A DNA stretch of 38,357 bases from Candidatus Peregrinibacteria bacterium (lineage in GTDB: Bacteria; Patescibacteriota; Gracilibacteria; Peribacterales; Peribacteraceae): positions 1-38,357 of the forward strand of contig JACPMB010000032.1 in the NCBI GenBank assembly GCA_016186175.1. Direction: 5' to 3'. Numbering within the stretch: the first letter of the stretch is position 1; the number at the start of each line of letters is the position of its first letter. The position numbers and the translations under genes were made by a program. Below the pieces are notes generated by a model, which did not search any database, had not been told where the DNA came from, and saw nothing but the letters and a program-made list of their open reading frames with translations. Positions 1 to 38,287 of the stretch are shown here, piece after piece.

Positions 1-1502
1 AGTTCGACTGGTGCTGCGTACAGGCTGCGCACGAACTGCAGAAACACGGGTACGACGTAATCACCGTCAACAGCAATCCCGAAACGGTTAGCACCGATTA
101 CGACGAAAGCGACGCCCTATTCTTCGAGCAGCTGACCGAGGAACGCGTTCGCGACATCGCCGACATTGTCCGGCCAGATGGCATCGTGGTCTCGATGGGA
201 GGCCAGATACCAAACTCATTGGCGCCCAAGCTCGCCAGCGCGGGACTTCATATTCTTGGAACTGATTCCGCTGACATTGACCGGTCGGAAGATCGTCATA
301 AATTCAGCAGCCTCCTTGACACCCTCGGAATAGACCAGCCGTCATGGAAAGAATTCGCCGACATGACGTCGGCTCGCGCGTTTGCTGAGAGCGTCGGGTA
401 TCCGGTCATAGTGCGGCCAAGTTACGTCCTCTCCGGTGCGGCGATGGCGGTGGTGCACAGCAACGACGACCTGGAAGCCTATATCGAGCAGGCCGCCCTT
501 GTATCCAGAGATGCTCCGGTTGTAATATCTAAATTTGAGCAGGGAGCGAAGGAAATCGAATTTGACGGAGTAGCGCAGGCCGGCAAGGTGCTCCTGTACG
601 CCATTTCGGAGCACATAGAGAACGCCGGCGTGCATTCCGGGGACGCCACCATCGTTCTGCCTCCGCAAAGAGTGAACGTGGCGACTCTCCGGCAGATGAA
701 GGTCATAGCCAAGCAGATAGCCTCTGGCCTGAGGATCAGCGGGCCGTTCAACATCCAGGTACTGGCTGCGCACAATCACCTGAAAGTCATCGAGTGCAAT
801 TTGCGCGCAAGCCGCAGCTTTCCTTTTGCAAGCAAGGTCACAGGCGAGAACTTTGCGGCGCTCGCGACACAAGCGTTGCTAGGAGTCGCCTCGTCGGACA
901 GGCGATACCAGACGATTGACCTGGATCACGTGGCGGTAAAAGCGGCTCAGTTCAGCTTTAGCCGTCTGAAAGGAGCCGATCCGCGCCTGGGCGTGGAAAT
1001 GGCAAGCACAGGCGAGGTCGCTTGTTTCGGATGGAACGCCGAGCAGGCGCTTCTGCTGGCACTGATCGCCGTCGGGTTCAAGACGCCGAAAAAGAACATT
1101 TTGATCACCGTCGGTCGCCTGGAGGACAAGATTGAACTGCTGCATTCCATACAACAGCTGCATCGCAAGGGCTTCTCGTTCTTCGCGACGGAACGCACTC
1201 ACGCATTCCTTACGTCGCGCGACCTGCCGTCGGGACTGCTGCACAAGGTTTCCGAGCCCAGAAGCCCTAATATACGCGAGTACATTGAGCAGCGTCGCGT
1301 AGACCTGGTAATCAACATCCCAAAAAGCAGCGGAGCAGTGGAGCAGACGGACGGCTACTTTATTCGGCGTCTCGCCACCGATCATGGCATACCGCTGATC
1401 ACAAACGTGCAACTCGCCAAGCGCCTGGTGGAGGCGATGATGGCGGAAGAAGTGGCTTCGCTGCCAATTCTAAGCTGGCCGGGAGTGCTGGGAATGCGAT
1501 GA
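1..1502 (+). CDS. carB: carbamoyl-phosphate synthase large subunit, C-terminal half (5' truncated by window)
   Basis: Carbamoyl-phosphate synthase large chain makes carbamoyl phosphate from bicarbonate, ATP and glutamine-derived ammonia for pyrimidine and arginine synthesis. The frame is open from base 3 and lacks its N-terminal half, which lies outside the window. The visible part opens with FDWCCVQAAHEL and NPETVSTDYD, the hallmark at the start of the second (carbamate-phosphorylating) half of CarB. The second ATP-grasp domain follows (VIVRPSYVLSG, VIECNLRASRSFPF), then a C-terminal MGS-like allosteric domain ending in LITNVQLAKRLVEAMM. About 499 codons are visible, close to the roughly 510 residues from this point in E. 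coli CarB, so the C-terminus is complete. It stops with TGA, evidence that UGA is a stop codon here. greA follows 64 bases later with its own promoter. Confidence 0.96.
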   Translation, partial: FDWCCVQAAHELQKHGYDVITVNSNPETVSTDYDESDALFFEQLTEERVRDIADIVRPDGIVVSMGGQIPNSLAPKLASAGLHILGTDSADIDRSEDRHKFSSLLDTLGIDQPSWKEFADMTSARAFAESVGYPVIVRPSYVLSGAAMAVVHSNDDLEAYIEQAALVSRDAPVVISKFEQGAKEIEFDGVAQAGKVLLYAISEHIENAGVHSGDATIVLPPQRVNVATLRQMKVIAKQIASGLRISGPFNIQVLAAHNHLKVIECNLRASRSFPFASKVTGENFAALATQALLGVASSDRRYQTIDLDHVAVKAAQFSFSRLKGADPRLGVEMASTGEVACFGWNAEQALLLALIAVGFKTPKKNILITVGRLEDKIELLHSIQQLHRKGFSFFATERTHAFLTSRDLPSGLLHKVSEPRSPNIREYIEQRRVDLVINIPKSSGAVEQTDGYFIRRLATDHGIPLITNVQLAKRLVEAMMAEEVASLPILSWPGVLGMR

Positions 1503-2604: not shown

Positions 2605-3585
2605 TCATTTCACCGCGCTCTGGGCATGGACAGCGCAGCATCGCATAATGAGCTCGTCCACAAGCGCCAGCAATTCCTGCGACGACTCCGCAGTCGCGCG
2701 AATGTCTCCGGTTTTCATTTCACAATCCGCAATCACCGCCCAATCTACAAGACCCTTTAATGCCAAAGTGGAAATTTTCTGCGCGAGAGGCAGAAGAGTT
2801 TTTACTGTCGAAACATTGACGTCGGCCGACAAGGCGATCTTTGCCGGATTCCGCTCGCCTTCGGATAAACATAACGAAACGCCGACAAGGCACCGAACCA
2901 TCCAGAGCAGAATTTTCCACAGAGAATATGGGTCCTCCCCGGAACGCAAAAGAATGTTCGCATAATTAAGCGACGACTGCAGATCGCCATGCGAGAGGAG
3001 CGTCATAAGCTGCCAAATTTCCTGGTCTCCGGATGGCACAGCAAGAAGTTCTACGTGCTCCGCTGTAATTGCTCGCCCAGCCCCAAGCGCAAGTTTGCGA
3101 AGTTCCTGCGACAGCATGTCCTGTTCCGGCCCGACTATCAGAAGCAGGCGCTTTATGGCCGGCATATCAATGCAAGATCCGCACTCGCGCGCGAAAGAAG
3201 ACACCCATTCCCGCAATTGCCTTTCGGTGAGCGGCGAAAACTGCTTTACAGTCGCAATTGCGAGCAGTTCTTTCAGTCCGCCGAGCCGTTTATCCGGTGC
3301 AGGATCGGCGAAGAGCAGCACGCATGCCGGATGAACGGCTTCGAGCACGCGGCGCATGTCTTCCTTCGCTAATTTAGGTACACCGACGATCACAATAAGC
3401 CGATTCGATGCAATGAATGGAGCTGCGCTCACCCCATCAAGCATGGTTTGCAGCGAAACATCAGATCCGTCAAGAGACAGAAGATTCTCCTGCCCGTGCT
3501 TGATGGCAAATTCTTGTATCCATCGCAGTTTTTCGCGGCGCAGTGCGAATTGATTGAGACCGGTGAACAGGAAGATATTATGCAT
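2605..3585 (-). CDS. holA: DNA polymerase III delta subunit (clamp loader)
   Basis: HolA is the clamp-loader subunit that opens the beta sliding clamp. The 326-residue protein has the family layout: an N-terminal AAA+-like domain without a real P-loop (MHNIFLFTGLNQFALRREK, where active ATPases have GxxGxGK), then SNRLIVIVGVP and ACVLLFADPAPDKR. The helical domains follow, with QFSPLTERQLREWV, LSQELRKLAL and the C-terminal collar region with DPYSLWKILLWMVR. The longer frame from 3615 is rejected: MHNIFLF is the natural HolA start and the -10 box lies at 3604-3612. It converges on the coiled-coil gene with about 60 bases between them and no obvious terminator. Confidence 0.9.
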   Translation of the reverse strand: MHNIFLFTGLNQFALRREKLRWIQEFAIKHGQENLLSLDGSDVSLQTMLDGVSAAPFIASNRLIVIVGVPKLAKEDMRRVLEAVHPACVLLFADPAPDKRLGGLKELLAIATVKQFSPLTERQLREWVSSFARECGSCIDMPAIKRLLLIVGPEQDMLSQELRKLALGAGRAITAEHVELLAVPSGDQEIWQLMTLLSHGDLQSSLNYANILLRSGEDPYSLWKILLWMVRCLVGVSLCLSEGERNPAKIALSADVNVSTVKTLLPLAQKISTLALKGLVDWAVIADCEMKTGDIRATAESSQELLALVDELIMRCCAVHAQSAVK

Positions 3586-3603
3586 TGATAGCGCAAATCC
3601 GGC

Positions 3604-3612
3604 AGTATAATA
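3604..3612 (-). promoter_or_regulatory. holA -10 region
   Basis: On the minus strand TATTATACT offers overlapping -10 hexamers (TATTAT, TATACT). The second ends 18 bases before the ATG at 3585, implying a leader of about 11 bases. Confidence 0.45.
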
Positions 3613-3681
3613 CATGCATATACAACAATATCTCTAAATGCAGTCAAATCCGCGTTAATTGAAAGATAAAGCCAATCAAGC

Positions 3682-3687
3682 TATAAT
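3682..3687 (+). promoter_or_regulatory. -10 box of the exported-protein cassette
   Basis: A consensus TATAAT ends 10 bases before ATG 3698, giving a leader of at most about 4 bases. It probably drives the dockerin gene and the genes packed behind it. Confidence 0.65.
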
Positions 3688-3697
3688 GAACGGATTT

Positions 3698-4048
3698 ATG
3701 AAATCATTACGCACATTCTTTACAAGACACACATTGCGCACATTGGCGCTCGGTGTGTTCTGCGCTGCCGGCGCCTTTGCCGTCGGCATCGAAACTGCCG
3801 GAGATGTGCATCCGTTCGCAAAGAGCGAAGCTGCTATCCAGGAAGTCGTGAGCGGATTCGGCCACGTGCAAGGCGATGTCGATGGCAACGGCGCGCTGGA
3901 TGCCGCCGACGCATACATCGTCTTCCGGGCAATAGAGGCACTAAACACGCCGTCGGAGGTTGAAATTCTTCGCGGAGACATGGATGACGACGGACGGCTG
4001 ACCAGTGACGATCTAAACAGCATTCTAAGGCTTCTATCACTTCAATAA
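3698..4048 (+). CDS. exported minimal dockerin-like protein
   Basis: A 116-residue protein made of a signal peptide (MKSLRTFFTRHTLRTLALGV, hydrophobic to about residue 30), a short spacer and one dockerin type I-like module. The module has two Ca-binding F-hand loops: DVDGNGALDAAD and DMDDDGRLTSDD, each with acidic or Asn residues at positions 1, 3, 5 and 12, each followed by a hydrophobic helix (AYIVFRAIEAL, LNSILRLLSL). Dockerins bind cohesins in cellulosomes and other extracellular assemblies. Here the module is not attached to any enzyme. The next gene, 7 bases downstream, encodes a cohesin-like protein, so the two may be partners (inference). ATG 3698 is chosen because TATAAT lies just upstream; an in-frame extension to 3659 would span the promoter. 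Confidence 0.8.
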   Translation: MKSLRTFFTRHTLRTLALGVFCAAGAFAVGIETAGDVHPFAKSEAAIQEVVSGFGHVQGDVDGNGALDAADAYIVFRAIEALNTPSEVEILRGDMDDDGRLTSDDLNSILRLLSLQ

Positions 4049-4055
4049 AGCGACC

Positions 4056-5324
4056 ATGCGCACCCGTGCCCAGAGACGGCATCTCTCCGCCCTGGCGATT
4101 ATTTTCATGCTTTCGTTTGTCTGGCCCATCCAGATTTACGCGCAATCCGATGTGCCAGCGCTCGTCTTCAGGCCGCATTGCGAGAAAACAGATCAGACTT
4201 TATGTTCTTCGTTTGACGTCGAAGATCCATCAACGCTGCGGACTGCGCCGCTTGCACCAGGAGATTCGCTTGATCTCGATATAGCGCTGGTTAACCCAAC
4301 GCGGGAGAAAATCGGAAAACTACGAATATGGATATCGTACGATTCCGAACTGCTTGAAGGAACAGTGCTGTCAATTTCCAATGCCTTCCCCGCCGTCGTG
4401 CCGGGGCAGTCGGATTTTTCTCCGCTCTCCGGATACGCGAAGATCGCCGCCAGCGCAAACGCCGGAAACGAACCGTCGGACGCCATCGTGCCGGTGGCGC
4501 GCGTGGTGTTCATCGTGAAAAACGGATCGAACGCATCGTCCACGCCGCTCAGCTTTTATGACCAGCGCGCCGGCACTGAGGGCCACACTTTCGTCACCAC
4601 GGCGATTGCCGCAGAACAGAACCTCCTTTCTACGCCGCTCGGAACTCTCATGGTGCAATTTGCGTCGTCATTTGAGACTAAGAGCGCATCCTCCGCTTAC
4701 GACAGCTCAACAATCTCTTCTTCCAATGCATCATCGGCTCATTCTTCGTCTAAATCCTCAGCAATGCCTCCAGCCGACTCCGCCGCAGATTCGACGACGT
4801 TCGGAATCGTCCAAATGCAGAACATCCGCGTCAGCACCAAAGACGACATTCTTTACGTAACATGGGACGCGCTCAGTCACCCGAAATTACAAGGCTACAA
4901 CGTTTACTATGGGACGCTGCGCGGCCGGTATTTGAATCGCCGCGGCGTTTCCGTCGCCTCGCGCGGCGCCGTAATCAGGGACCTTCCTAAGGACAAGACT
5001 TATTATGTGGCGGTGCGCGGAGTAAGTGACGAGAATCAGGAGACTGCCTTCAGCCCCGAGGAATCTGTTGAAATCGGCAATCCGCAAACTTCGTCTGCGC
5101 CTATAACGGGCTCGCTCGATTTGATCGCAGAAGTCTCGCCGGGAGCAAGCGCTCCGCAAAATCCAGTCGGCCGTATGCAAGAGAATCCCGAAAAAACACC
5201 GGAGGTGCCGGGTAAGTCCGGCGCGCCGTCCGGTTTGACTCTTCTGCTTTTGGGTTCCGCGGCAATCGGCGCGCTTTTCGCATGCAGGCGCCAGGTGACC
5301 GCCGCCAGAAAACTTCAAACATGA
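4056..5324 (+). CDS. membrane-anchored cohesin-like / fibronectin type III protein
   Basis: A 422-residue surface protein. It begins with a signal peptide (about residues 1-30, ending near IYAQSDVP). Residues about 36-200 look like a cohesin beta-sandwich: LAPGDSLDLDIALVNPTREKIGKLRIWISYDSELLE, then a closing strand after FIVKN. A Ser-rich linker follows (about 210-245), then a fibronectin type III domain (about 250-340) with LYVTWDALSHPKLQGYNVYYG and YYVAVRGVSDENQE. A C-terminal membrane helix (GLTLLLLGSAAIGALFACRR) with a basic tail anchors it. The start is 7 bases after the dockerin stop, and the stop overlaps the next start as ATGA, so this is one operon. The cohesin call rests on fold-level motifs; another CBM-like sandwich is possible. 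Confidence 0.72.
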   Translation: MRTRAQRRHLSALAIIFMLSFVWPIQIYAQSDVPALVFRPHCEKTDQTLCSSFDVEDPSTLRTAPLAPGDSLDLDIALVNPTREKIGKLRIWISYDSELLEGTVLSISNAFPAVVPGQSDFSPLSGYAKIAASANAGNEPSDAIVPVARVVFIVKNGSNASSTPLSFYDQRAGTEGHTFVTTAIAAEQNLLSTPLGTLMVQFASSFETKSASSAYDSSTISSSNASSAHSSSKSSAMPPADSAADSTTFGIVQMQNIRVSTKDDILYVTWDALSHPKLQGYNVYYGTLRGRYLNRRGVSVASRGAVIRDLPKDKTYYVAVRGVSDENQETAFSPEESVEIGNPQTSSAPITGSLDLIAEVSPGASAPQNPVGRMQENPEKTPEVPGKSGAPSGLTLLLLGSAAIGALFACRRQVTAARKLQT

Positions 5325-6304
5325 CCGACATGCATCCTCACTGGCAATCCACAAGCGACGACGATCAATCGCCGCAATTTGCCTCCGGCGGGCGCTTGAA
5401 GGCAGAAACATGCCCTGCTTCGCAGGAGCGCAGAGGGTCCCGCATCTCCATTAAACCGGCGTCTCGGCTTCCGGCAGCCATCGTGGGAATATCTATATTC
5501 ACAGTCGTCAGCATAACCGTCGCCGGCGGATGGCAGGCGCTAACCGCGCAAATAGGAAACCAGGGCGGCGGCGCGTCTTCGTCTTCCGAGTCCGTCCAAG
5601 ACCTTCATCCAATCGAGATTCACATCGGCTCAGCCGGCTTTCAGCCGACGATCGTAACGGTCAAGCCAGGACAGCAGATTATATGGATCAACGATCAATT
5701 CATCCCTCACATCATAACGTCGCAGACTCTGCGGGACGGCAGCGGAGCCTATTTGAACACTCCTGCCATCTTCCCGGGGGACACGGCAACGTTCACGGTC
5801 GGATCGCGCGAACCTGACCGCCAGCACGACATTGCTTCTACAACCGATCAGACGCTTCTAGGCGCTGTAATAGTAAAAGCTTCCGGAGCTGTTAATTCGT
5901 CGTCATCGTCGTCGCGATCGCGCAGAGCGCCTTTTGGCAACACAGACGGCGTCAATCTTCCGTCGGGAGAAGGGCGCGCCGGAAAAAAGACGTCTGCGGC
6001 TTCCAAGCCGTCCAGACTCTCCAAAATCTCGTCGTCCGCGGCCCAGTCCGCAATTTTTCAGGAACATCCGGTGGCGCCGATGGATGACGATTCCGAAAAA
6101 AAAGACGGCTCGCCGGCTACTCTGGACGTATTCGCGCCGCATGACGCGCCATACTCGAACATTGTGTCACAAGACGTTAGTGCGCCGGAAACTCCGGCGA
6201 CCATGGAACAGCCCAATACCGGCCCCGGACTCTGGGCAGTGTGCTTTATGAGCATCGCAGTGATGTGGGGAGCAACCCGCAAATATTTTCGGCAGACGTC
6301 GTGA
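5321..6304 (+). CDS. membrane-anchored cupredoxin-like protein with NTGPG C-terminal tail
   Basis: A 327-residue protein. A cytoplasmic N-terminal stretch of about 45 residues precedes a membrane helix (AAIVGISIFTVVSITVAGG). Residues about 95-190 form a plastocyanin-like cupredoxin domain: GFQPTIVTVKPGQQIIWIND, then FIPHIIT with the first copper-ligand His. The usual Cys and Met ligands are not evident near REPDRQHDIAS...LLGAVIV, so the copper site is probably degenerate. A long Ser/Arg/Pro-rich stalk follows, then QPNTGPGLW, a hydrophobic helix and a KYFRQTS tail. That arrangement resembles a sortase-type sorting signal, although the motif is not LPXTG. The start ATG 5321 overlaps the previous stop (ATGA), indicating translational coupling; the in-frame ATG at 5282 would overlap the upstream gene by 43 bases. 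Confidence 0.68.
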   Translation: MTDMHPHWQSTSDDDQSPQFASGGRLKAETCPASQERRGSRISIKPASRLPAAIVGISIFTVVSITVAGGWQALTAQIGNQGGGASSSSESVQDLHPIEIHIGSAGFQPTIVTVKPGQQIIWINDQFIPHIITSQTLRDGSGAYLNTPAIFPGDTATFTVGSREPDRQHDIASTTDQTLLGAVIVKASGAVNSSSSSSRSRRAPFGNTDGVNLPSGEGRAGKKTSAASKPSRLSKISSSAAQSAIFQEHPVAPMDDDSEKKDGSPATLDVFAPHDAPYSNIVSQDVSAPETPATMEQPNTGPGLWAVCFMSIAVMWGATRKYFRQTS

Positions 6305-6357
6305 TGAGCAACAAATGTCGCTGACCGTCCATCATTGACCATCCGCACACAGCGCAG

Positions 6358-6363
6358 TAGAGT
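6358..6363 (+). promoter_or_regulatory. -10-like box before the Hcp-family gene
   Basis: TAGAGT ends 7 bases before GTG 6371, matching the spacing seen throughout the window. It supports GTG 6371 over TTG 6335. Confidence 0.4.
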
Positions 6364-6370
6364 CCACTAT

Positions 6371-6940
6371 GTGCCGCGTATCCGCAGTTTGATGTCCGCC
6401 GCGATCCTGCTATCCATGCTGATGGTAGTTTTTCTGGCGTCTGTCGCGGGAGAGCATTCTTGGACCCCGGCTTCCGCGCAGACTGCTCCAAAAACCGCGC
6501 CGGGAGACCATTTTTTTCTCAGCGTGGACGGCGTCGCGGGAGAGGCAACGGAAACAGGCCACTCGGGCGATCTGGCGGTGCGCTCGTTCGCGTGGGGCGA
6601 GTCCAGGACGACGGATAGTTCCTCCAGAGTGCAAACCAGGGATTTCCAGATAACGATGGCGCTCGACAAGTCCTCTCCTCTCCTCATGCGCAAGGCCGCC
6701 GTGAGGGAAAGAATCGCTAAAGCGACGCTCGTGGCCCGCAATCCGCTCAGACAGGATTACCTCAGGTGGACGCTGACCGACGTAATACTCACGTCCTTTC
6801 AGGTGGACGGCACGGCCGGGCAGGGCAAGCCGGTCGTCACCTTCGCTATGAACATCGGCAAAATGGACGTCGAGTACCGGCCGCAACTATACAACGGCGG
6901 ACTCGGGCCGGCGGTTAAAGCAGGATGGGAGGCAAGGTGA
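6371..6940 (+). CDS. exported Hcp1-family (T6SS tube-like) protein
   Basis: About 189 residues from GTG 6371 (ATG 6392 and TTG 6335 are alternatives). A signal peptide or membrane anchor (SLMSAAILLSMLMVVFLASV, ending near ASAQTAP) precedes one Hcp domain: FFLSVDGVAGEATETGHSGD, VRSFAWGES, TRDFQITMALDKSSPLLM, then LRWTLTDVILTSFQ and a final strand MDVEYRP. This matches the Hcp1/PF05638 pattern (F-L-x-I-D-G-I-x-G-E-S, DkxSP-L). Classical Hcp is a leaderless cytoplasmic protein that forms the type VI secretion tube; a Sec-type signal is atypical, and no other T6SS gene is in view. It closes the exported cassette behind the cohesin-like and cupredoxin-like genes. A structural or adhesive surface role is inference. 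Confidence 0.75.
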   Translation: MPRIRSLMSAAILLSMLMVVFLASVAGEHSWTPASAQTAPKTAPGDHFFLSVDGVAGEATETGHSGDLAVRSFAWGESRTTDSSSRVQTRDFQITMALDKSSPLLMRKAAVRERIAKATLVARNPLRQDYLRWTLTDVILTSFQVDGTAGQGKPVVTFAMNIGKMDVEYRPQLYNGGLGPAVKAGWEAR

Positions 6941-7041: not shown

Positions 7042-7878
7042 ATGAATAAAGGTATTCCCGAAGCAGACAGCAAGCTATTGGAAGAAAAATATTCACAGAG
7101 TCCCGCGAAAATTGCGGACATGGACCCTCGCAAGTTTGTGGACAACATTGCATGGCGGCTCTACACCGAATGGTGCTGTGACCCCGCGAATGCTGCGGAG
7201 TCATACCGGAGTTATGACGGACAAGCCTATCGCCAATGGGTTGAACAGGAAACACACTATGCCATGCAAAGGAGAAGGAATGAACATCCTCAGGGAGGCG
7301 ACGTGCATCAGCAGGTACGAACGAAAATCGTGGAAGCTGTCGTTAGCAGAGCGATTGAATTGTTCAGCGATTGGGAAGGTCATACATATCCCAAGAACAA
7401 AGAAGACAAGCGAAACCTCAGGGCATCGCTACAGCCGTATATAGACCAACGCCACGAAGTGACTCAAAAACCCGATGGCGAAATGGAGGTCGTGTTTTCA
7501 GATTCAGAAACCGTTATGGTTGCGCGTGGAACAACTGACAGGCCACTGCCAGAGTTGGTAGTCAAAAATCCTCGCAGAGCGGCAGAGTTGGTATTTGCTT
7601 CATTCGAACGGGCGGCAGATTTTCAACGGCAGCTAGCAACATCCGTGGAGGCGGTCCCGATGCCAGACATGCCAGAAAACTCACGAAGCGTCACAGTGAA
7701 CGTACCCGAGAACATGGATGCCCGAGCAATCATGGCTCATATAATGATGACGGCTGGTTGCATCGTCACTCGTTCAGGAAATCAAGTGTCCGCCGCCGTC
7801 GATAAGAACTCGTTCCCTATGTTTTGGAAGGCACTCACGCAAGTAGGTCTGTCAAAGGAACACATTTGCTTCAACTGA
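7042..7878 (+). CDS. hypothetical protein, unrecognised
   Basis: A 278-residue soluble protein without a signal peptide or membrane segment. I recognise no family. The N-terminal half is helical and charged (KFVDNIAWRLYTEWCC, QVRTKIVEAVVSRAIELF, KRNLRASLQPYIDQR). The C-terminal part has a possible small alpha/beta domain (RSVTVNVPENMDARAIMAHIMMTAG, CIVTRSGNQVSAAVD). Its DNA is visibly more AT-rich and less biased toward GC-ending codons than the neighbouring cassette, which could mean acquisition by transfer or a fast-evolving accessory gene. A TAAAAT lies about 32 bases upstream of the ATG, too far for the leaderless pattern. It is followed by a gene-poor stretch and tRNA-Tyr, a common neighbourhood for acquired DNA. 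Confidence 0.7.
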   Translation: MNKGIPEADSKLLEEKYSQSPAKIADMDPRKFVDNIAWRLYTEWCCDPANAAESYRSYDGQAYRQWVEQETHYAMQRRRNEHPQGGDVHQQVRTKIVEAVVSRAIELFSDWEGHTYPKNKEDKRNLRASLQPYIDQRHEVTQKPDGEMEVVFSDSETVMVARGTTDRPLPELVVKNPRRAAELVFASFERAADFQRQLATSVEAVPMPDMPENSRSVTVNVPENMDARAIMAHIMMTAGCIVTRSGNQVSAAVDKNSFPMFWKALTQVGLSKEHICFN

Positions 7879-24990: not shown

Positions 24991-27222
24991 TCACACGACG
25001 ATGCTCACGAGTTTTCCTTTGACGTAGAGTTCTTTTTTGACTGATTTCTTCGCCAGAAATTTCTGCACATTCAGATCCTTCTTCGCCATGGCAAGAATGT
25101 CCTTTTCCGAGGCATCCGCGGCCACATCGATCTGCCCCCGAACCTTCCCGTTCACCTGCACGACGATCGTCATTGTGGCGGTGACGAGGAGTCGCGGATC
25201 GAATTCGGGCCACCGCTGGTCAATTACGAACCCCGCTGAGCCAAACACCTTCGAAGATGCAGGGCTTTGCGGGACAAGTTCTTTTCTGTCATTCAATGTT
25301 TCCCACAGTTCTTCCGCAAGATGCGGCGCCAGCGGCGCAAGCAGGCGCGTGAATGTCTTTGCCGTTTCGTTCGAGAATGATTCCCCTTCGACGGCATTCA
25401 TGAACTCCATCAGTGCGCTGATTGCCGTATTGAAGTGCATCTTCTCCAGACTTTCCGTGACTTTTTTGATTGCCTGATTAAGCGCAACGATCACCTCCTT
25501 GGCATCCCCGGCTTCTTCGACTTCCTTGGCTTCTTCTCCAAATGTCCTCCATACCCTCTGCACGAATCTATCAATGCCTTTGATGCCAGAGTCGCTCCAA
25601 TCCCCTCCATTCGTGAACGGCCCCATGAACATCAGGTACATCCGGAACACGTCGCTGCCGTGACGATCGACGAAGCTATCCGGGCTCACGACATTGCCCT
25701 TCGACTTGCTCATCTTTGCCCCTTTGTTGGTTATAAGCCCCTGATGAACCAATTTTTTGAACGGCTCTTCGTGTGCAACGAAGCCGAAATCCTTCAGCGC
25801 CATCATGACGAAACGCGCATAGATCAAATGCATGCACGCGTGCTCCGGGCCGCCGATATACATGCTCACGGGCATCCACTTCTTCTCGATGAAGGGATCT
25901 ACCAATACCCCCTCTCCCTGGCCCCTCCAACCGCGCCTCCCTCCGATCCCTTCGACAACGCTCAGGGCAGGCGGCGACGAAGAGACGGAAGCTGCCAGAT
26001 AACGCAAATAATAGAAACTCGAACAGACGAACGTGTCCATCGTATCGAACTCCGGCCTCCACCCCTTCCCGAAGATCTTCTCCGTCCTCTCGATGAACTC
26101 CCTGGAGTGCCTCAGCGGCGATTCCCCCGTCGGCTTGAATTCCACATCCGTCGGGAGCAACCACGGCAGATGCTCATCAGGGATCGGATGGGGATTGCCC
26201 TGCGGATCGTAGACGATGGGGATCGGCGCACCCCAGTAGCGCTGACGTGAGACGAGCCAGTCGCGGAGGCGGTAGGTGGTGACACGTTTGCCCCATCCTT
26301 CCTTCTCCAGATGATCCATGATCTTCTCCTTGGCCTCCATGATCGGAAAGCCGTCGAGGAAACCAGAATGCACCATGGCGCCTTCTTCCTCTTGGACCTG
26401 CTCGATCCTCGTAACGGGTGATGTATCGCCGTCTGATCCCACGACCACCCGGACGATAGGGATACCGAATTGACGGGCGAACTCGAAGTCCCGCCTGTCG
26501 TGACCCGGGACCCCTACCACGGCGCCCGTGCCGAATCCGGCAAGAACGAAATCCGAAATCCAAATGGGAATCCTTGCACCGTTTAAATTATTCATTGCAT
26601 AAAAACCGGTGAACGCCCCTGTCTTCTTTCTTCCCTCTTCTTGGCGCTGGAGCTCAGTCTTGGCCAGAGCAAACGCATGGTAATCCCTCACCTGTTTGGC
26701 AGAAGACTTATCTTTCGGAATAAGCCCTCCGCTCATCACTTTCTGGACAAATGGATGCTCAGGCGCAAGAACGATGAAAGTGGCACCGAAGTTGGTATCC
26801 GGACGGGTCGTGAAGCACGTAATCGTCAGGGGAAGGCTGGAGAGAACCCGCCCATCAACAGGGATTGAATCTTTCGGTGGATTATTCCGAATGTAATGAA
26901 TTACCGCATCAAAATTTTGCTGTGTGTCGACATTCTCATGATGTACTCCCTCGCCCCACAGAGAACCTCCACCTGTGTTTTTGAGAAATTCTCTCGCGCT
27001 TGCTCCTTTCAATTTTTTTACAATATCCTGATTCAAATCACGATCACGATGAAAACTGACAAGAAGATGCACGTGATCGGGCATAGCCGCAGCTTCATGA
27101 ATGACAATGTCATGACGAGAGGCCACGACATCCAGGATACGCAAAATAGACATTGCATCTTTTGATGAATCAAACGCCGCCTCGCGATTGTGCGGCGTGA
27201 ACACCAAATGCACGATCCGCAC
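24991..27222 (-). CDS. leuS: IS200-like (RAYT) transposase domain fused to C-terminal part of leucyl-tRNA synthetase
   Basis: A single 743-codon frame with two unrelated parts. Residues 1 to about 117 are a Y1/HUH transposase of the REP-associated type: RIVHLVFTPHNRE, the HUH motif MPDHVHLLV (His50, His52) and the catalytic Tyr110 in HYIRNNP. From about residue 133 the protein is LeuRS: ITCFTTRPDTNFG (threonine-rich editing motif), LAPEHP, the synthetic-site KMSKSKGN, the anticodon-binding helices and a C-terminal KVRGQIDVAAD...LYVKGKLVSIVV. The N-terminal LeuRS half is upstream in another frame. The two LeuRS parts total about 850 residues, a normal bacterial length. A second in-frame insert (LAAS followed by about 30 extra residues before DPFIEKKWMP) comes from a dispersed repeat at 25948-25972. 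GTG 27222 is the first possible start after the hairpin, but no -10 box is near it. Confidence 0.85.
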   Translation of the reverse strand: MRIVHLVFTPHNREAAFDSSKDAMSILRILDVVASRHDIVIHEAAAMPDHVHLLVSFHRDRDLNQDIVKKLKGASAREFLKNTGGGSLWGEGVHHENVDTQQNFDAVIHYIRNNPPKDSIPVDGRVLSSLPLTITCFTTRPDTNFGATFIVLAPEHPFVQKVMSGGLIPKDKSSAKQVRDYHAFALAKTELQRQEEGRKKTGAFTGFYAMNNLNGARIPIWISDFVLAGFGTGAVVGVPGHDRRDFEFARQFGIPIVRVVVGSDGDTSPVTRIEQVQEEEGAMVHSGFLDGFPIMEAKEKIMDHLEKEGWGKRVTTYRLRDWLVSRQRYWGAPIPIVYDPQGNPHPIPDEHLPWLLPTDVEFKPTGESPLRHSREFIERTEKIFGKGWRPEFDTMDTFVCSSFYYLRYLAASVSSSPPALSVVEGIGGRRGWRGQGEGVLVDPFIEKKWMPVSMYIGGPEHACMHLIYARFVMMALKDFGFVAHEEPFKKLVHQGLITNKGAKMSKSKGNVVSPDSFVDRHGSDVFRMYLMFMGPFTNGGDWSDSGIKGIDRFVQRVWRTFGEEAKEVEEAGDAKEVIVALNQAIKKVTESLEKMHFNTAISALMEFMNAVEGESFSNETAKTFTRLLAPLAPHLAEELWETLNDRKELVPQSPASSKVFGSAGFVIDQRWPEFDPRLLVTATMTIVVQVNGKVRGQIDVAADASEKDILAMAKKDLNVQKFLAKKSVKKELYVKGKLVSIVV
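25948..25972. repeat. dispersed CTTCG...TCAGGGCAGGC repeat inside leuS
   Basis: CCCTTCGACAACGCTCAGGG followed by CAGGC. The same unit, inverted, occurs in the RlpA-like gene at 36386-36410, sharing CTTCG and an identical 11-base TCAGGGCAGGC end. It is translated in frame as PALSVVEG. Confidence 0.65.
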
Positions 27223-27345
27223 GGGCGAATGAATTCGCCCGTCGTTTTTTCCGCGGATACCTGATGTATATTTTCGGTCAGGGTAGCCGGCGGTTTAAAC
27301 CGCCGGCTACCCTCGATGGCCTGGCCGAATTCATTCGGCGGGCCG
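26830..27345 (-). mobile_element. RAYT / IS200-like element with REP-like hairpins inserted in leuS
   Basis: The element consists of the transposase-coding segment (about 26871-27222) and three hairpins upstream of it. Hairpin 1: ACGGGCGAAT (27221-27230) pairs with ATTCGCCCGT (27233-27242). Hairpin 2: a perfect 32-base palindrome (27281-27312) with arms GGGTAGCCGGCGGTTT and AAACCGCCGGCTACCC; its base carries the GTAG tetranucleotide typical of REP sequences. Hairpin 3: GCCGAAT (27324-27330) pairs with ATTCGGC (27333-27339). The boundaries are approximate, inferred from where LeuRS homology stops (about 27360) and resumes (about 26826). HUH transposases of this kind move single-stranded DNA and recognise such hairpins. 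Confidence 0.82.
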
Positions 27346-28076
27346 ATCAATCCGCGAGTCGTTCCCTCAATCTCATAGGTGATATTGATACCGAATTTTC
27401 GACCGATCCAATTCTCCTGCATAATTTTAGTCTTCCGTGGCCAATCCAAGTCTTTGAGATTGTCCAAGAGCTTGTCGGAATATTTTGTGATATTCCAGTA
27501 CCACTGTTCCAGTGGTTTTTGGATTACAGGCGTTTCACATCGCTCGCACTTGCCATCCCACACTTGTTCATTTGCGAGGACCGTCTGGCAGCTCGGACAG
27601 AAGTTGACGCTGCCGAGCTTCTTGTACGCGAGCTTGTTCCTGAACATCTGGAGAAAGAGCCACTGCGTCCATCGGTAATACGCAGGGTCGGACGTGTTCA
27701 CCGTCTTCTCCCAGTCGTACATGCAGCCGATCCGCTTAAGCTGCGCGATCATCGTCTGCACATTGGCTGCGGTGGATTTTGCTGGATGGACTCCTGTCTT
27801 TACCGCGTGATTCTCGGCGGGAAGCCCAAATGCATCGAATCCCATAGGAGCAAACACGTCATACCCTTTCATGCGCATATACCTAGACCAGCTATCCGCC
27901 GGCGCAAAGTTGTACCAATGCCCCACGTGCAGCTTGTCGCCGCTCGGGTACGGGAACATCACGAGCGCGTAGTATGGTTTCTTCGCTTTACGCAAATCTG
28001 TCCTGTACACGCCAGCGTCCTCCCAGCGCTTCTGCCACTTGGGTTCGATGACAGACTGATCGTAATCGCAAGGCAT
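27033..28076 (-). CDS. leuS: leucyl-tRNA synthetase, N-terminal fragment (interrupted gene)
   Basis: The N-terminal part of LeuRS, the class I synthetase that charges tRNA-Leu. Residues 1-239 are normal: MPCDYDQSVIEPKWQKRW, MFPYPSGDKLHVGHW (HIGH motif as HVGH, residues 50-53), FGLPAENHAV, and a zinc pair CPSC (160-163) and CERC (177-180). ENWIGRKFGINITYEIEGT leads into the CP1 editing domain. Homology then ends where the transposon element begins; the frame runs on through it for about 108 unrelated codons to a stop at 27033. The start at 28076 has TACACT 8 bases upstream; the in-frame extension to 28163 would cross the divergent promoter. The fragment ends before the editing active site and lacks KMSKS, which is in the downstream frame. 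Confidence 0.85.
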   Translation of the reverse strand: MPCDYDQSVIEPKWQKRWEDAGVYRTDLRKAKKPYYALVMFPYPSGDKLHVGHWYNFAPADSWSRYMRMKGYDVFAPMGFDAFGLPAENHAVKTGVHPAKSTAANVQTMIAQLKRIGCMYDWEKTVNTSDPAYYRWTQWLFLQMFRNKLAYKKLGSVNFCPSCQTVLANEQVWDGKCERCETPVIQKPLEQWYWNITKYSDKLLDNLKDLDWPRKTKIMQENWIGRKFGINITYEIEGTTRGLIGPPNEFGQAIEGSRRFKPPATLTENIHQVSAEKTTGEFIRPCGSCIWCSRRTIARRRLIHQKMQCLFCVSWMSWPLVMTLSFMKLRLCPITCIFLSVFIVIVI

Positions 28077-28084
28077 CGCGGAAA

Positions 28085-28090
28085 AGTGTA
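28085..28090 (-). promoter_or_regulatory. leuS -10 box, leaderless promoter
   Basis: TACACT on the minus strand ends 8 bases before the ATG at 28076. It is back to back with the acetyltransferase promoter in a 41-base divergent gap. Confidence 0.55.
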
Positions 28091-28103
28091 GCATGTGCGG
28101 CAA

Positions 28104-28109
28104 TATTCC
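28104..28109 (+). promoter_or_regulatory. -10-like box of the acetyltransferase gene
   Basis: TATTCC ends 8 bases before ATG 28118 (AATATT two bases upstream is an alternative). Confidence 0.4.
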
Positions 28110-28117
28110 TTCCTGGT

Positions 28118-29017
28118 ATGCAGTCTCTACAGGAATCTCCGCTGCCGGAGAACGAGCAGCCATGGCGCGCAGGTGACTATTACGTGACCAATATCACGAT
28201 TTCCGAAATTAGAGCGTCGCTCGCGGCTCTCTCTTCCGATAAGAATCAACTGAGTGCGTTTGCCGCTTCCAAAGTTCTCCGGAGCCAGGTGCAGGATCTC
28301 CACAGCTACATTGTCCGCTACGGTAGCAAACGGGCGGCGATCACCAAGCTGATTCGTGAGTTAGTGACGACGAAACAATATGACCAACTGCAACCGGCGC
28401 TGGTGCATTTGGAACAAACCATACCTCAGTACGTTCGCGAGCCCGCACTTCATCCATCCCATACGACGAAATTATCCAGAAGCCCAGAGGGAAAAATCCG
28501 CTACCACATACGCTGGATGATCCGCCACGACTTGCCGTACGTCTTGCATATCAGCGGGCGAAGCTTCGACTGGGATTGGAGTGAAAATGATTTTCTTCAG
28601 TGTCTCCGGCAACGCGACTGCATCGGGATGGTCGCAGAGCACGGATGCAGCAACATCGTCGGCTACATGATTTATCAACTGAAGAAAGCCAAGTTCCACA
28701 TTCTCAATTTCGCCGTCCATCCTGCTTGGCGGCGGATGAATGTCGGCGGAGCGATGGTGGAAAAATTGGTTGCGATGCTGGATAACCGGCGACGAACACG
28801 TCTGACGATGGAGATTCGCGAAAGCAACCTGCCTGGGCAATCGTTCTTCCGGAAAAAAGAATTCGCAGCGACAGGCGTCACCAGGAATTTTTACGATGAT
28901 ACCGGCGAGGACGCATACAGGATGCAATACAGGGCATATCCCCCGAATGAACTGGAACTTCAGGAAGAACAGGAAGGAAACCAGTACGTCAATGATGAGA
29001 ATGGGGATCGGAGCTGA
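28118..29017 (+). CDS. GNAT-family N-acetyltransferase (RimI-like) with N-terminal helical domain
   Basis: A 299-residue protein. Residues about 130-280 form a GNAT domain resembling RimI, which acetylates protein N-termini using acetyl-CoA: RWMIRHDLPYVLHI, FLQCLRQRDCIGMVAE, VGYMIYQLKKAKFHILNFAV, then the acetyl-CoA loop HPAWRRMNVGGAMVEKL. EIRESNLPGQSFFRKKEF and a DAYRMQYRA strand complete the fold. The first 125 residues (SEIRASLAALSSDKNQLSAF and so on) form an uncharacterised helical domain not found in ordinary RimI. The pyrophosphate-binding loop reads RRMNVG rather than the common RxxGxG/A, still plausible. It is divergent from leuS and 18 bases upstream of der, so it may be co-transcribed with der, although der has its own -10. 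Confidence 0.85.
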   Translation: MQSLQESPLPENEQPWRAGDYYVTNITISEIRASLAALSSDKNQLSAFAASKVLRSQVQDLHSYIVRYGSKRAAITKLIRELVTTKQYDQLQPALVHLEQTIPQYVREPALHPSHTTKLSRSPEGKIRYHIRWMIRHDLPYVLHISGRSFDWDWSENDFLQCLRQRDCIGMVAEHGCSNIVGYMIYQLKKAKFHILNFAVHPAWRRMNVGGAMVEKLVAMLDNRRRTRLTMEIRESNLPGQSFFRKKEFAATGVTRNFYDDTGEDAYRMQYRAYPPNELELQEEQEGNQYVNDENGDRS

Positions 29018-35562: not shown

Positions 35563-36633
35563 TTATTCGGAACACTCAATCGCCCGCATTTTCAATTCCC
35601 TTGCGCGGCCGCCCGCCGATCCCAGAGCGAAAGTATATTCTCCTGCCACACCCGGCATGAACGGATGCGATTCGCCGGGCAGTATCCAGTCTTCCAGAAA
35701 GGTCACGGCGCCGTCCGGATACCGGACATAACGCAGCACAAACGGGCGCGTGGACCGGAAGGTCAGATCTTTCCCCAGCGGCAGCGTCGCCGGAACGCCT
35801 CCTATCAGATGCACGCCCTTTGTGATTCGGACGGCTCTCCTCGGATCCTTGTCGCCGCACATATCCACCAAAGCGGCGTCGCCGAGACGCTGGAACGTGG
35901 CGCGCAAAATTCCTTTCGACCTGTCTTCGATTGCTATGAACGCAGCAATGCTTAAATCCATATCCCGTCCCTCGACATACGGCCCGCGGTCGTTGATTCT
36001 GACAATGACGGATTTGCCGTTCCTGATGTTGGTGACTTTCACCAGAGTATTGTGCGGCAACGTCCTGTGCGCTGCGGTTAGGGCATTCATATCGAACCTT
36101 TCTCCGAACGCCGTGCCCCTGCCGTGAAATTTCTCTCCGTACATGCTGACTTCGTGAGCTTCCTTTGCGAGCACTTCGTCGAGGGATCGCACAAGAATCT
36201 CCAACTCTCCTTCGGTGACGGTTTGCGCAGCGTTGTCCGGCGCCAGGAAGGCAACGGGGTAGCGCTTGAGCATGGCCGGAAGGTTTTCTTTCGTGAGAGA
36301 CGGAAGCTCATCCACGCTGCGCGTCCGGAAGAGCCACAAAAGCGCGTCGTCCAGAGCAAGGCTGTCGTCCGGATGGAACTCAGGAGCCTGCCCTGAACGG
36401 GGCGAAGCGCCATTCACTATTCCGCGATATTTCGCATACGTAATTTCGGAAAATCCGCGCGCGCCCTCCGGGACGTCTGCGAACGGCTGTTCGCCATTTT
36501 CCTGAGTCGCCCGCCGGATGCCCTGCCAAAGCATAAGGAATCCGTCGCGGCGCGAGACGGCAGCGGATTGCGCCGTCGCGAAAGCGGGCAGAACGAGCGA
36601 CGCCAAAAACAGACCGACGATCAAGCGGCGCAT
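35563..36633 (-). CDS. exported RlpA-like (double-psi beta-barrel) protein with SLH-like N-terminus
   Basis: A 356-residue exported cell-wall protein. The signal peptide is MRRLIVGLFLASLVLPAFATAQ. Residues about 25-110 resemble a degenerate S-layer-homology module (PFADVPEGARGFSEITYAKYRGIVNG, then FHPDDSLALDDALLWLFR). A RlpA-like double-psi barrel follows (about 165-255): SMYGEKFHGRGTAFGERFD, ALTAAHRTLPHNTLVKVTN and VRINDRGPYVEGRDMDLS, with the family's catalytic Asp in NDRGP. The C-terminal domain (VHLIGGVPATLPLG...) is unassigned. RlpA proteins cleave or bind peptidoglycan. A dispersed repeat (36386-36410) is read through in frame as GASPRSGQAPE within the SLH-like part. The ATG at 36633 is chosen over 36642 because that codon overlaps the -10 TAGAAT. 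Confidence 0.85.
   Translation of the reverse strand: MRRLIVGLFLASLVLPAFATAQSAAVSRRDGFLMLWQGIRRATQENGEQPFADVPEGARGFSEITYAKYRGIVNGASPRSGQAPEFHPDDSLALDDALLWLFRTRSVDELPSLTKENLPAMLKRYPVAFLAPDNAAQTVTEGELEILVRSLDEVLAKEAHEVSMYGEKFHGRGTAFGERFDMNALTAAHRTLPHNTLVKVTNIRNGKSVIVRINDRGPYVEGRDMDLSIAAFIAIEDRSKGILRATFQRLGDAALVDMCGDKDPRRAVRITKGVHLIGGVPATLPLGKDLTFRSTRPFVLRYVRYPDGAVTFLEDWILPGESHPFMPGVAGEYTFALGSAGGRARELKMRAIECSE
36386..36410. repeat. dispersed TCAGGGCAGGC...CTTCG repeat inside the RlpA-like gene
   Basis: GCCTGCCCTGAACGGGGCGA followed by AGCGC; its reverse complement shares CTTCG and an identical TCAGGGCAGGC with the leuS repeat at 25948-25972. Confidence 0.6.
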
Positions 36634-36640
36634 GGACTGC

Positions 36641-36646
36641 ATTCTA
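36641..36646 (-). promoter_or_regulatory. -10 box, leaderless promoter of the RlpA-like gene
   Basis: TAGAAT on the minus strand ends 7 bases before the ATG at 36633. Confidence 0.5.
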
Positions 36647-36889: not shown

Positions 36890-38287
36890 TCAAATCGCCT
36901 GCCACCCTTTTGATCGAACAGTCTGGAGGAGCTGGCGCCTCAAGTCCCTCCTGTAGCGCGCGAGAGTGGCTGGTCCGGCATAACCGGCTCCGGAATCGCT
37001 CCCGCCGGCGATTATCCCCGCATCCTGTTGGTACGCGATAAGCGCAAGTTCTGTTTTGGCTCCGAATTTTCCCGTCGCAACATCATTCAGATAGCCTTTG
37101 CCTATGAGAAATTTCTGCAGTGCGCGCACGGACGGCCCGCTGTCGCCCTTGCCGATGAATTGCCGCAGATCGTCGCCGCGCTTCACTATCAATTGATCTA
37201 TTTTGCGCAGTTCGAGAAGGCGATGCGCGACTCTTTCCGCGTGCTTACGGCGCCAGAGGCGTACAATTCGGTCTTTCGTCCTTGGACCGATTTGTCCGGC
37301 TCCGGGCGTCTCGCCGGACGGCACTATCCCCTGCTTCTTTTGGAACGCCAGCACGGCATTCTGGAAAACCCGGTCGTATTGTCCGTTCGTCCGGCCCCTG
37401 TAGAAGCCAAGGAACCGCAGCGTCCTCTGAGCCTCGGCGATGCGCGCGGCTGAGCTTTCCGCGCTTATCGTCATGGTGATTGGATCGCGCGCGTCGGCGC
37501 GGAGATATGCGGCTTCGATCAGCGCTGCGCCTCGTTCTGTCAGTGAGTCGTCGGATTCCCGGACCGCCATGTCGTCGTAGAATTTTCGCAAACCTGCCCG
37601 AGTCGCCGGCCCGAACGATCCGTTCGGTTGCGCATCAAAATAATCGAGCGCGAGAAGGCGCTCTTGCAAGAATTGCACCGACGCCGACCGGTCGCCTGCT
37701 TTGGCGTGAATATCGAGGAGAGTCGTGGAGTCAGCCAGATAAGGACGGAGTTTGTCCGGAGTGGCGTCCAGTCCGGCCAGATCAAAGAATGCTTCCGGTT
37801 GCTGAGAGCCGTGAGGATAAATGACCGCGCGGACGCGCCTGACGCCAAACGCGAGCGCGCGCGCGAGGCCTTCCTCTCCGCGTCCGGCCCAGAGATCCAG
37901 CCGGTGGGCGTCCTGCAATTCACGGATTGCGCCTCCGCGATCATGTACGGTAACCGTGCCGATGCCGGGGAGCACGATTCGCGTGCCGAACGGATACGAA
38001 GGCGGGGCGGCGACCATGCCCGCATAGACTTCCGTCCCGTCGGCGCCGTGGTGGCCTTCTCCGTTAAGTTCGATGTCTGCGAAAAAATTCCCCCTCACAT
38101 AGCAGCACTGATCCGGAAGCGGCGAATAGTAGGCGGTGATGACGAGATCCTGTTCAAACGGCTTGCCACGCGAGAACATGGCGTCAGTCGCTCCGGCAAC
38201 CGGCGCATATCCCCTGCTCTGCGCTGCAGATGGAAACAGCAAATTTAAGATCGCGGCCGCCGCCAGCAGATTTGTTCTTGTGTGCAT
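36890..38287 (-). CDS. exported 3D-domain protein with three peptidoglycan-binding modules
   Basis: A 465-residue exported wall protein. A signal peptide (NLLAAAAILNLLFPSAAQS) precedes a 3D/double-psi-barrel domain at about residues 45-165: DLVITAYYSPLPDQ, YPFGTRIVLPGIGTVTVHDRGG and HRLDLWAGRGEEGLARALAFG. The three conserved Asp residues that name the 3D family appear in HDRGG and RLDLW. Three PG_binding_1-like modules follow: VQFLQERLLALDYFDAQPNG, AQRTLRFLGFYRGRTNGQYD and VRALQKFLIGKGYLNDVATG. It probably acts as a lytic or remodelling enzyme held on peptidoglycan. It has its own -10 box. In Patescibacteria such enzymes may be used on the self wall or on a host wall (inference). Confidence 0.9.
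   Translation of the reverse strand: MHTRTNLLAAAAILNLLFPSAAQSRGYAPVAGATDAMFSRGKPFEQDLVITAYYSPLPDQCCYVRGNFFADIELNGEGHHGADGTEVYAGMVAAPPSYPFGTRIVLPGIGTVTVHDRGGAIRELQDAHRLDLWAGRGEEGLARALAFGVRRVRAVIYPHGSQQPEAFFDLAGLDATPDKLRPYLADSTTLLDIHAKAGDRSASVQFLQERLLALDYFDAQPNGSFGPATRAGLRKFYDDMAVRESDDSLTERGAALIEAAYLRADARDPITMTISAESSAARIAEAQRTLRFLGFYRGRTNGQYDRVFQNAVLAFQKKQGIVPSGETPGAGQIGPRTKDRIVRLWRRKHAERVAHRLLELRKIDQLIVKRGDDLRQFIGKGDSGPSVRALQKFLIGKGYLNDVATGKFGAKTELALIAYQQDAGIIAGGSDSGAGYAGPATLARYRRDLRRQLLQTVRSKGWQAI

Follow-up and report, generated by a model that had tools for sequence, protein, structure and literature searches.

Cohesin and dockerin are the joining modules of the cellulosome, and non-cellulosomal cohesin and dockerin modules were reportedly described by Peer et al. 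in 2009. The latter systems share with the present locus the placement of both modules on surface proteins, in a genome without a cellulosome. They differ from it in that here the modules belong to a fixed three-gene cassette, kept across an order, which encodes a bare dockerin (doc), an anchored cohesin-fibronectin type III (FnIII) protein (coh) and a third membrane protein (cup). We regard the cassette as a variant of non-cellulosomal cohesin-dockerin systems that is itself new; no description of it was found in open-licence papers on cohesins or dockerins of Peribacteria, Peregrinibacteria or Patescibacteria. The domain order of coh is matched by the double module of Clostridium perfringens GH84C (2w1n), where a cohesin is also followed by FnIII, but that module is part of a glycoside hydrolase, whereas coh is devoid of enzyme domains and has a membrane anchor at its end. 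A parallel within Patescibacteria is SEML1_0315 of Southlakia epibionticum (Saccharibacteria), a dockerin-domain envelope protein reported to be essential (PMC10633639). It resembles doc by domain and by the envelope location predicted for doc, homology aside, and it belongs to another class than the host of doc. Our preferred reading, which we judge reasonably probable, is that the cassette encodes a reduced, non-cellulosomal cohesin-dockerin surface assembly, core to Candidatus Peribacterales, that displays or caps a docking site.

The cassette was found in a window of 38,357 nucleotides (the whole stretch of DNA analysed) from a Candidatus Peregrinibacteria genome of 0.9 Mb, in 48 contigs and with a completeness of 82%. 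According to the ORF listing of the window, four plus-strand ORFs lie at 3698-6940, namely doc, coh, cup and an Hcp-like gene (Table 1), and greA lies farther upstream than the divergent holA. The gap between doc and coh is 7 bases (4048/4056) and coh overlaps cup by ATGA at 5321-5324, which suggests that doc, coh and cup form one transcript. A hydrophobic segment is present at the N-terminus of all four products, and also at the C-terminus of the coh and cup proteins. The original prediction, made from the DNA alone, had described three tightly packed genes, export or membrane signals on all four products and a lone dockerin beside a membrane-held cohesin, and these statements were borne out by the sequence, the Dockerin_1 match of doc, and the cohesin fold and C-terminal anchor of coh. 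Elsewhere in the window, leuS (24991-28163, minus strand) is interrupted, with its N-terminal half and its editing/C-terminal half in different frames. The halves are about 0.5 kb apart, and the interruption brings with it an IS200-like Y1 transposase domain (PF01797, E 5e-16) that shares the frame of the second half, and a perfect palindrome of 28 bases (27283-27310); a search for Rfam introns found none.

Table 1. Positions of the cassette features and the flanking genes in the window.
Feature	Position	Strand	Basis or remark
holA (DNA polymerase III delta)	2605..3615	-	divergent neighbour marking the conserved site, 59/60 loci
doc, exported minimal dockerin protein, 116 aa from ATG 3698	3698..4048	+	Dockerin_1; homologue in 57/60 loci
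doc hydrophobic segment, signal peptide or N-terminal anchor	3734..3787	+	sequence and family alignment
dockerin calcium loop 1, DVDGNGALDAAD	3875..3910	+	EF-hand-like loop
dockerin calcium loop 2, DMDDDGRLTSDD	3977..4012	+	EF-hand-like loop
coh, secreted cohesin, Ser linker, FnIII and C-terminal anchor, 422 aa	4056..5324	+	
coh cohesin module, residues 32-205	4149..4670	+	Z 14.7 to 4uyp_A
coh fibronectin type III module, residues 247-342	4794..5081	+	Pfam scans of relatives, AF2 model
coh C-terminal tail VPGKSG, hydrophobic helix and RR, sorting-signal-like	5205..5324	+	
cup, membrane protein with copper-less cupredoxin domain, 327 aa	5321..6304	+	ATGA overlap with coh
cup conserved N-terminal tail (LHPHW--TDD) and first TM (residues 50-74)	5321..5542	+	
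cup cupredoxin-fold domain	5612..5875	+	structural match, ligand alignment
cup C-terminal tail QPNTGP, TM and RK (consensus QP-TGP), sorting-signal-like	6206..6304	+	
Hcp-family protein with export signal, genus-level neighbour	6335..6940	+	PF05638, E 5e-20, over the Pfam cut-off

The identity of coh was established by structure and by its relatives. When scanned alone, the coh protein of the window fell below Pfam detection for cohesin (PF00963), but 28 of 33 relatives matched this family at E<=0.1 (best E 8e-10), and 29 of the 33 matched FnIII. Structure prediction, which had been proposed as a check of the suspected cohesin, was run with AF2 on 33 sequences and gave a mean pLDDT of 79.6, with residues 32-205 mostly above 90. 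This model agreed with the scaffoldin cohesin 4uyp_A over 138 residues with an rmsd of 2.4 (Z score in Table 1), and its best Foldseek match was the cohesin-FnIII double module 2w1n, so that the cohesin fold is upheld. The module has a conserved PHC...C, with C42 and C50 invariant. Many coh relatives (A3 members) have a Cys-rich insert with EB and DUF4215-type matches between cohesin and FnIII. Matches to coh in viral contigs were confined to the FnIII region and were discarded as relatives.

The doc protein, which has a second in-frame ATG at 3686, matched the type I dockerin family Dockerin_1 (PF00404) over the Pfam cut-off with an E-value of 6e-7, and 25 of 29 doc family members matched it as well. 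Of 59 members, 50 have both calcium loops complete, each loop with its four ligand positions occupied. With two calcium-loop repeats and the Pfam match, doc has the features of a type I dockerin, and judging from its ligand residues it would bind calcium. In about a third of the high-quality genomes of the order no Pfam dockerin was found at E 0.001, because doc is divergent there.

The order was sampled by 74 genomes, 57 of them of high quality, and 60 cassette loci were fetched. It is in all likelihood Candidatus Peribacterales, because the 35 named loci encoding the coh family come from Candidatus Peribacteria/Peregrinibacteria MAGs. A coh gene match was obtained in 73/74 genomes, including all 57 of high quality (G044, which is outside the high-quality set, gave only weak, FnIII-like matches), whereas the coh profile search reached 72/74 and cohesin PF00963 passed its cut-off in 43/74. 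The order of genes in relatives, on which the original prediction had been made to depend, proved to be conserved: doc, coh and cup follow each other beside divergent holA in 57/60 loci, with doc upstream of coh on the same strand in 57/60 and cup downstream of coh in 59/60. All three genes are under purifying selection, and nine pairs of relatives gave a dN/dS of 0.08-0.31 for doc. Because the order is kept in 57/60 loci and doc evolves under such constraint, the cassette is beyond chance.

Docking of doc onto coh through a calcium-dependent contact is predicted from these sequences, and the main alternative is that the two proteins are both at the surface with no mutual binding, coh taking dockerins from elsewhere and doc being a separate calcium-binding envelope protein. 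Such an arrangement would agree with the further dockerin proteins encoded at other loci in some Peribacterales (G016, G017, G034 and G044), and with genus g20, in which coh and cup are kept and doc is lost (L050, L052); in the holA-coh interval there, no reading frame showed a dockerin. Against it, no Pfam dockerin besides doc was found in most genomes of the order, the source genome included, doc and coh are adjacent order-wide, and the distances of doc correlate with those of coh (r 0.71) more than with those of the neighbour holA (r 0.47). We thus consider separate roles for doc and coh rather unlikely.

It is also conceivable, but unlikely in our estimation, that doc is not a permanent part of the assembly and serves as a soluble plug or chaperone, blocking or stabilising the cohesin until another surface partner comes. 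The size of doc would suit this role, as the protein has no cargo domain and would be about one dockerin long (about 75-80 residues) if the hydrophobic segment were cleaved. However, the motif F--GI-TAG-V-P is strongly conserved, its GI-TAG-V-P part directly following the hydrophobic segment, which fits an anchor or contact over a discarded signal.

An enzyme-docking, cellulosome-like system is suggested by the joining modules themselves and by the scaffoldins that are the top structural matches of the coh cohesin. A cellulosome would consist of a scaffoldin with several cohesins and of dockerin-bearing enzymes, but each coh protein has one cohesin, and the cassette proteins gave no match to enzyme domains or carbohydrate-binding modules, which makes this explanation highly improbable. 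The earlier view of an enzyme-free docking pair, in a lineage not known to us for cellulosomes, is supported by these results.

The third protein, cup, is composed of a cytoplasmic-looking tail, a TM at residues 50-74, a cupredoxin domain at residues 98-185, a long linker and a second TM at residues 302-326. The model had a pLDDT of mostly 97-98 over residues 98-185, amicyanin and plastocyanin were the best Foldseek matches of the domain, and Cupredoxin_1 was found in 20 of 29 relatives. The domain thus has a fold in common with plastocyanin and amicyanin but has lost the copper site of these proteins. The ligand set His-Cys-His(-Met) is not present: aligned to plastocyanin, cup has other residues in place of the Cys, second His and Met of the YYCAPH...M loop, and the position of Cys84 is Ser in 50 and Cys in 0 of the 54 rows with a residue there. 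The first His is retained in 31/59 rows, and a few genomes (L064, L067, L070, L073, L081) have no cupredoxin domain in cup. The original description of cup as a cupredoxin-like anchor therefore stands for the fold and not for the copper site, and cup is rejected as a copper protein. An electron-transfer or copper-handling surface system based on cup, which the plastocyanin/amicyanin fold might bring to mind, is very hard to reconcile with replaced ligands, a first His kept in only part of the family and a domain that some genomes have lost.

The Hcp-like gene had been counted as the fourth member of the cassette, which its distribution contradicts. Hcp was detected in 17/74 genomes of the order, mostly elsewhere than at the cassette, and within the fetched stretch in 3/60 loci, one of these on the opposite strand and 3.4 kb away. 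By this distribution Hcp is a local neighbour, and neither a place in the conserved cassette nor a link to Type VI secretion was retained. The ORF after Hcp (7042-7878, plus strand, 278 aa) has no Pfam match and no homologue in the 60 fetched loci.

The tails of coh and cup may be sortase signals. The family consensus is VPGETG-TM-RRQ for coh (VPGKSG in the window) and QP-TGP-TM-RR for cup in relatives, and both tails retain the G motif, TM and basic end. A scan of the collected ORFs for such tails returned mostly coh, cup and their sister-locus counterparts; the NCBIfam anchor models gave no match for the coh and cup tails. Sortase genes are present in 73/74 genomes of the order, and in many genomes a same-strand sortase lies upstream of the cassette at a distance of about 10-18 kb. 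At the start of the window (1-1502) is the remainder of a carB-like ORF, and contig G000:C22 (L163) breaks off within such an ORF. The two contigs are therefore probably neighbours, in which case the cassette would have a sortase about 10 kb upstream. The second sortase of this genome (L164:4384-5670, minus strand) has an N-terminal part that, read from sequence, seems SLH-like. The window also encodes an RlpA-type DPBB protein (35563-36642, minus strand) and, at 36890-38287 on the minus strand, one with three peptidoglycan-binding domains.

When the coh profile was run against the whole class, related cohesin-FnIII proteins came up in other families. Their loci (L143-L162) encode, in order, a C-terminal-dockerin protein where the stretch reaches, a giant Ig-type protein, a lipoprotein cohesin and a cohesin-FnIII-TM protein, and several end with a TGP-tailed TM protein, a linker anchor with no cupredoxin. 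The last two proteins have counterparts in the cassette, and the lipoprotein, which has a single cohesin and a lipobox in 15 loci, is homologous to the coh cohesin (hhalign E 2e-27). The differences are the giant protein of 1,300-1,800 residues, with the dockerin-like repeat ADLNGDG-VDF-DF near its end, and the second, lipid-anchored cohesin, both of which the cassette does not have; minimal doc, cupredoxin and the holA neighbour were in turn not found in the sister-family loci. A cohesin at the N-terminus of the giant protein, which would make head-to-tail chains, was set aside as a weak hint (E 0.14 to scaffoldin cohesins, hhalign probability 0.5%). Strong matches to the giant family come from families f7-f10, f12 and f34, and the giant protein occurs in one of the 74 Peribacterales genomes (G028) and is absent from the other 73. 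Since G028 has a giant-type locus and no minimal doc, giant protein and minimal doc occur together in no genome seen. Most simply, Peribacterales would have cut the dockerin partner down to a bare module, while cup would have acquired its cupredoxin.

In a phylum sample of 380 genomes (E<=1e-5, one shared genome set assumed), cohesin was present in 90, dockerin in 99 and both in 39 (Fisher p 3e-5, ignoring kinship). The co-occurrence held outside the order with an odds ratio of 3.6 (p 2e-6, ignoring kinship), and cohesin and dockerin lie within 10 kb of each other in at least 20 genomes among the matches listed.

Considering these results, we propose the following model for the reduced surface assembly. 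The doc protein would be exported by its N-terminal hydrophobic segment, its dockerin would fold on binding two calcium ions, and it would then dock onto the cohesin module of coh. This module would stand outside the membrane on the Ser-rich linker and FnIII, held by the C-terminal TM tail, possibly a sortase signal. The cup protein would be made together with coh, as the ATGA overlap suggests, and would sit next to it. Its conserved tail would lie in the cytoplasm, followed by a TM, by the copper-less cupredoxin, which would serve for structure or binding, and by another sorting-like tail. The three proteins together would display or cap a docking site at the cell surface. The cassette would be a reduced form of the sister-lineage locus, in which the giant Ig-type protein takes the place of the bare dockerin. 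Points against this model are the genus that dispensed with doc, the high-quality genomes without a Pfam dockerin and the few genomes whose cup has no cupredoxin domain. From this we infer a role in surface attachment or display; the pilus-like assembly that had also been suggested is unsupported, as no pilin feature was seen. More tentatively, and as a possibility that we do not favour strongly, an old Patescibacteria surface system, with giant Ig-type dockerin proteins on paired anchored cohesins, may have been reduced in Peribacterales to a plug and socket with a copper-less cupredoxin, as a core part of the envelope and perhaps essential for host-cell attachment.

A fixed core cassette of this kind throughout an order of small-genome bacteria is surprising. 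The surface machinery of uncultivated Patescibacteria is mostly obscure, and a few genes that are kept throughout an order and encode recognisable binding modules are a direct and testable handle on it: they offer three soluble domains and a single contact predicted to depend on calcium, and the larger sister-family locus can serve for comparison. The locus suggests that dockerin-cohesin docking can be a core, enzyme-free part of the cell envelope, far from cellulosomes.
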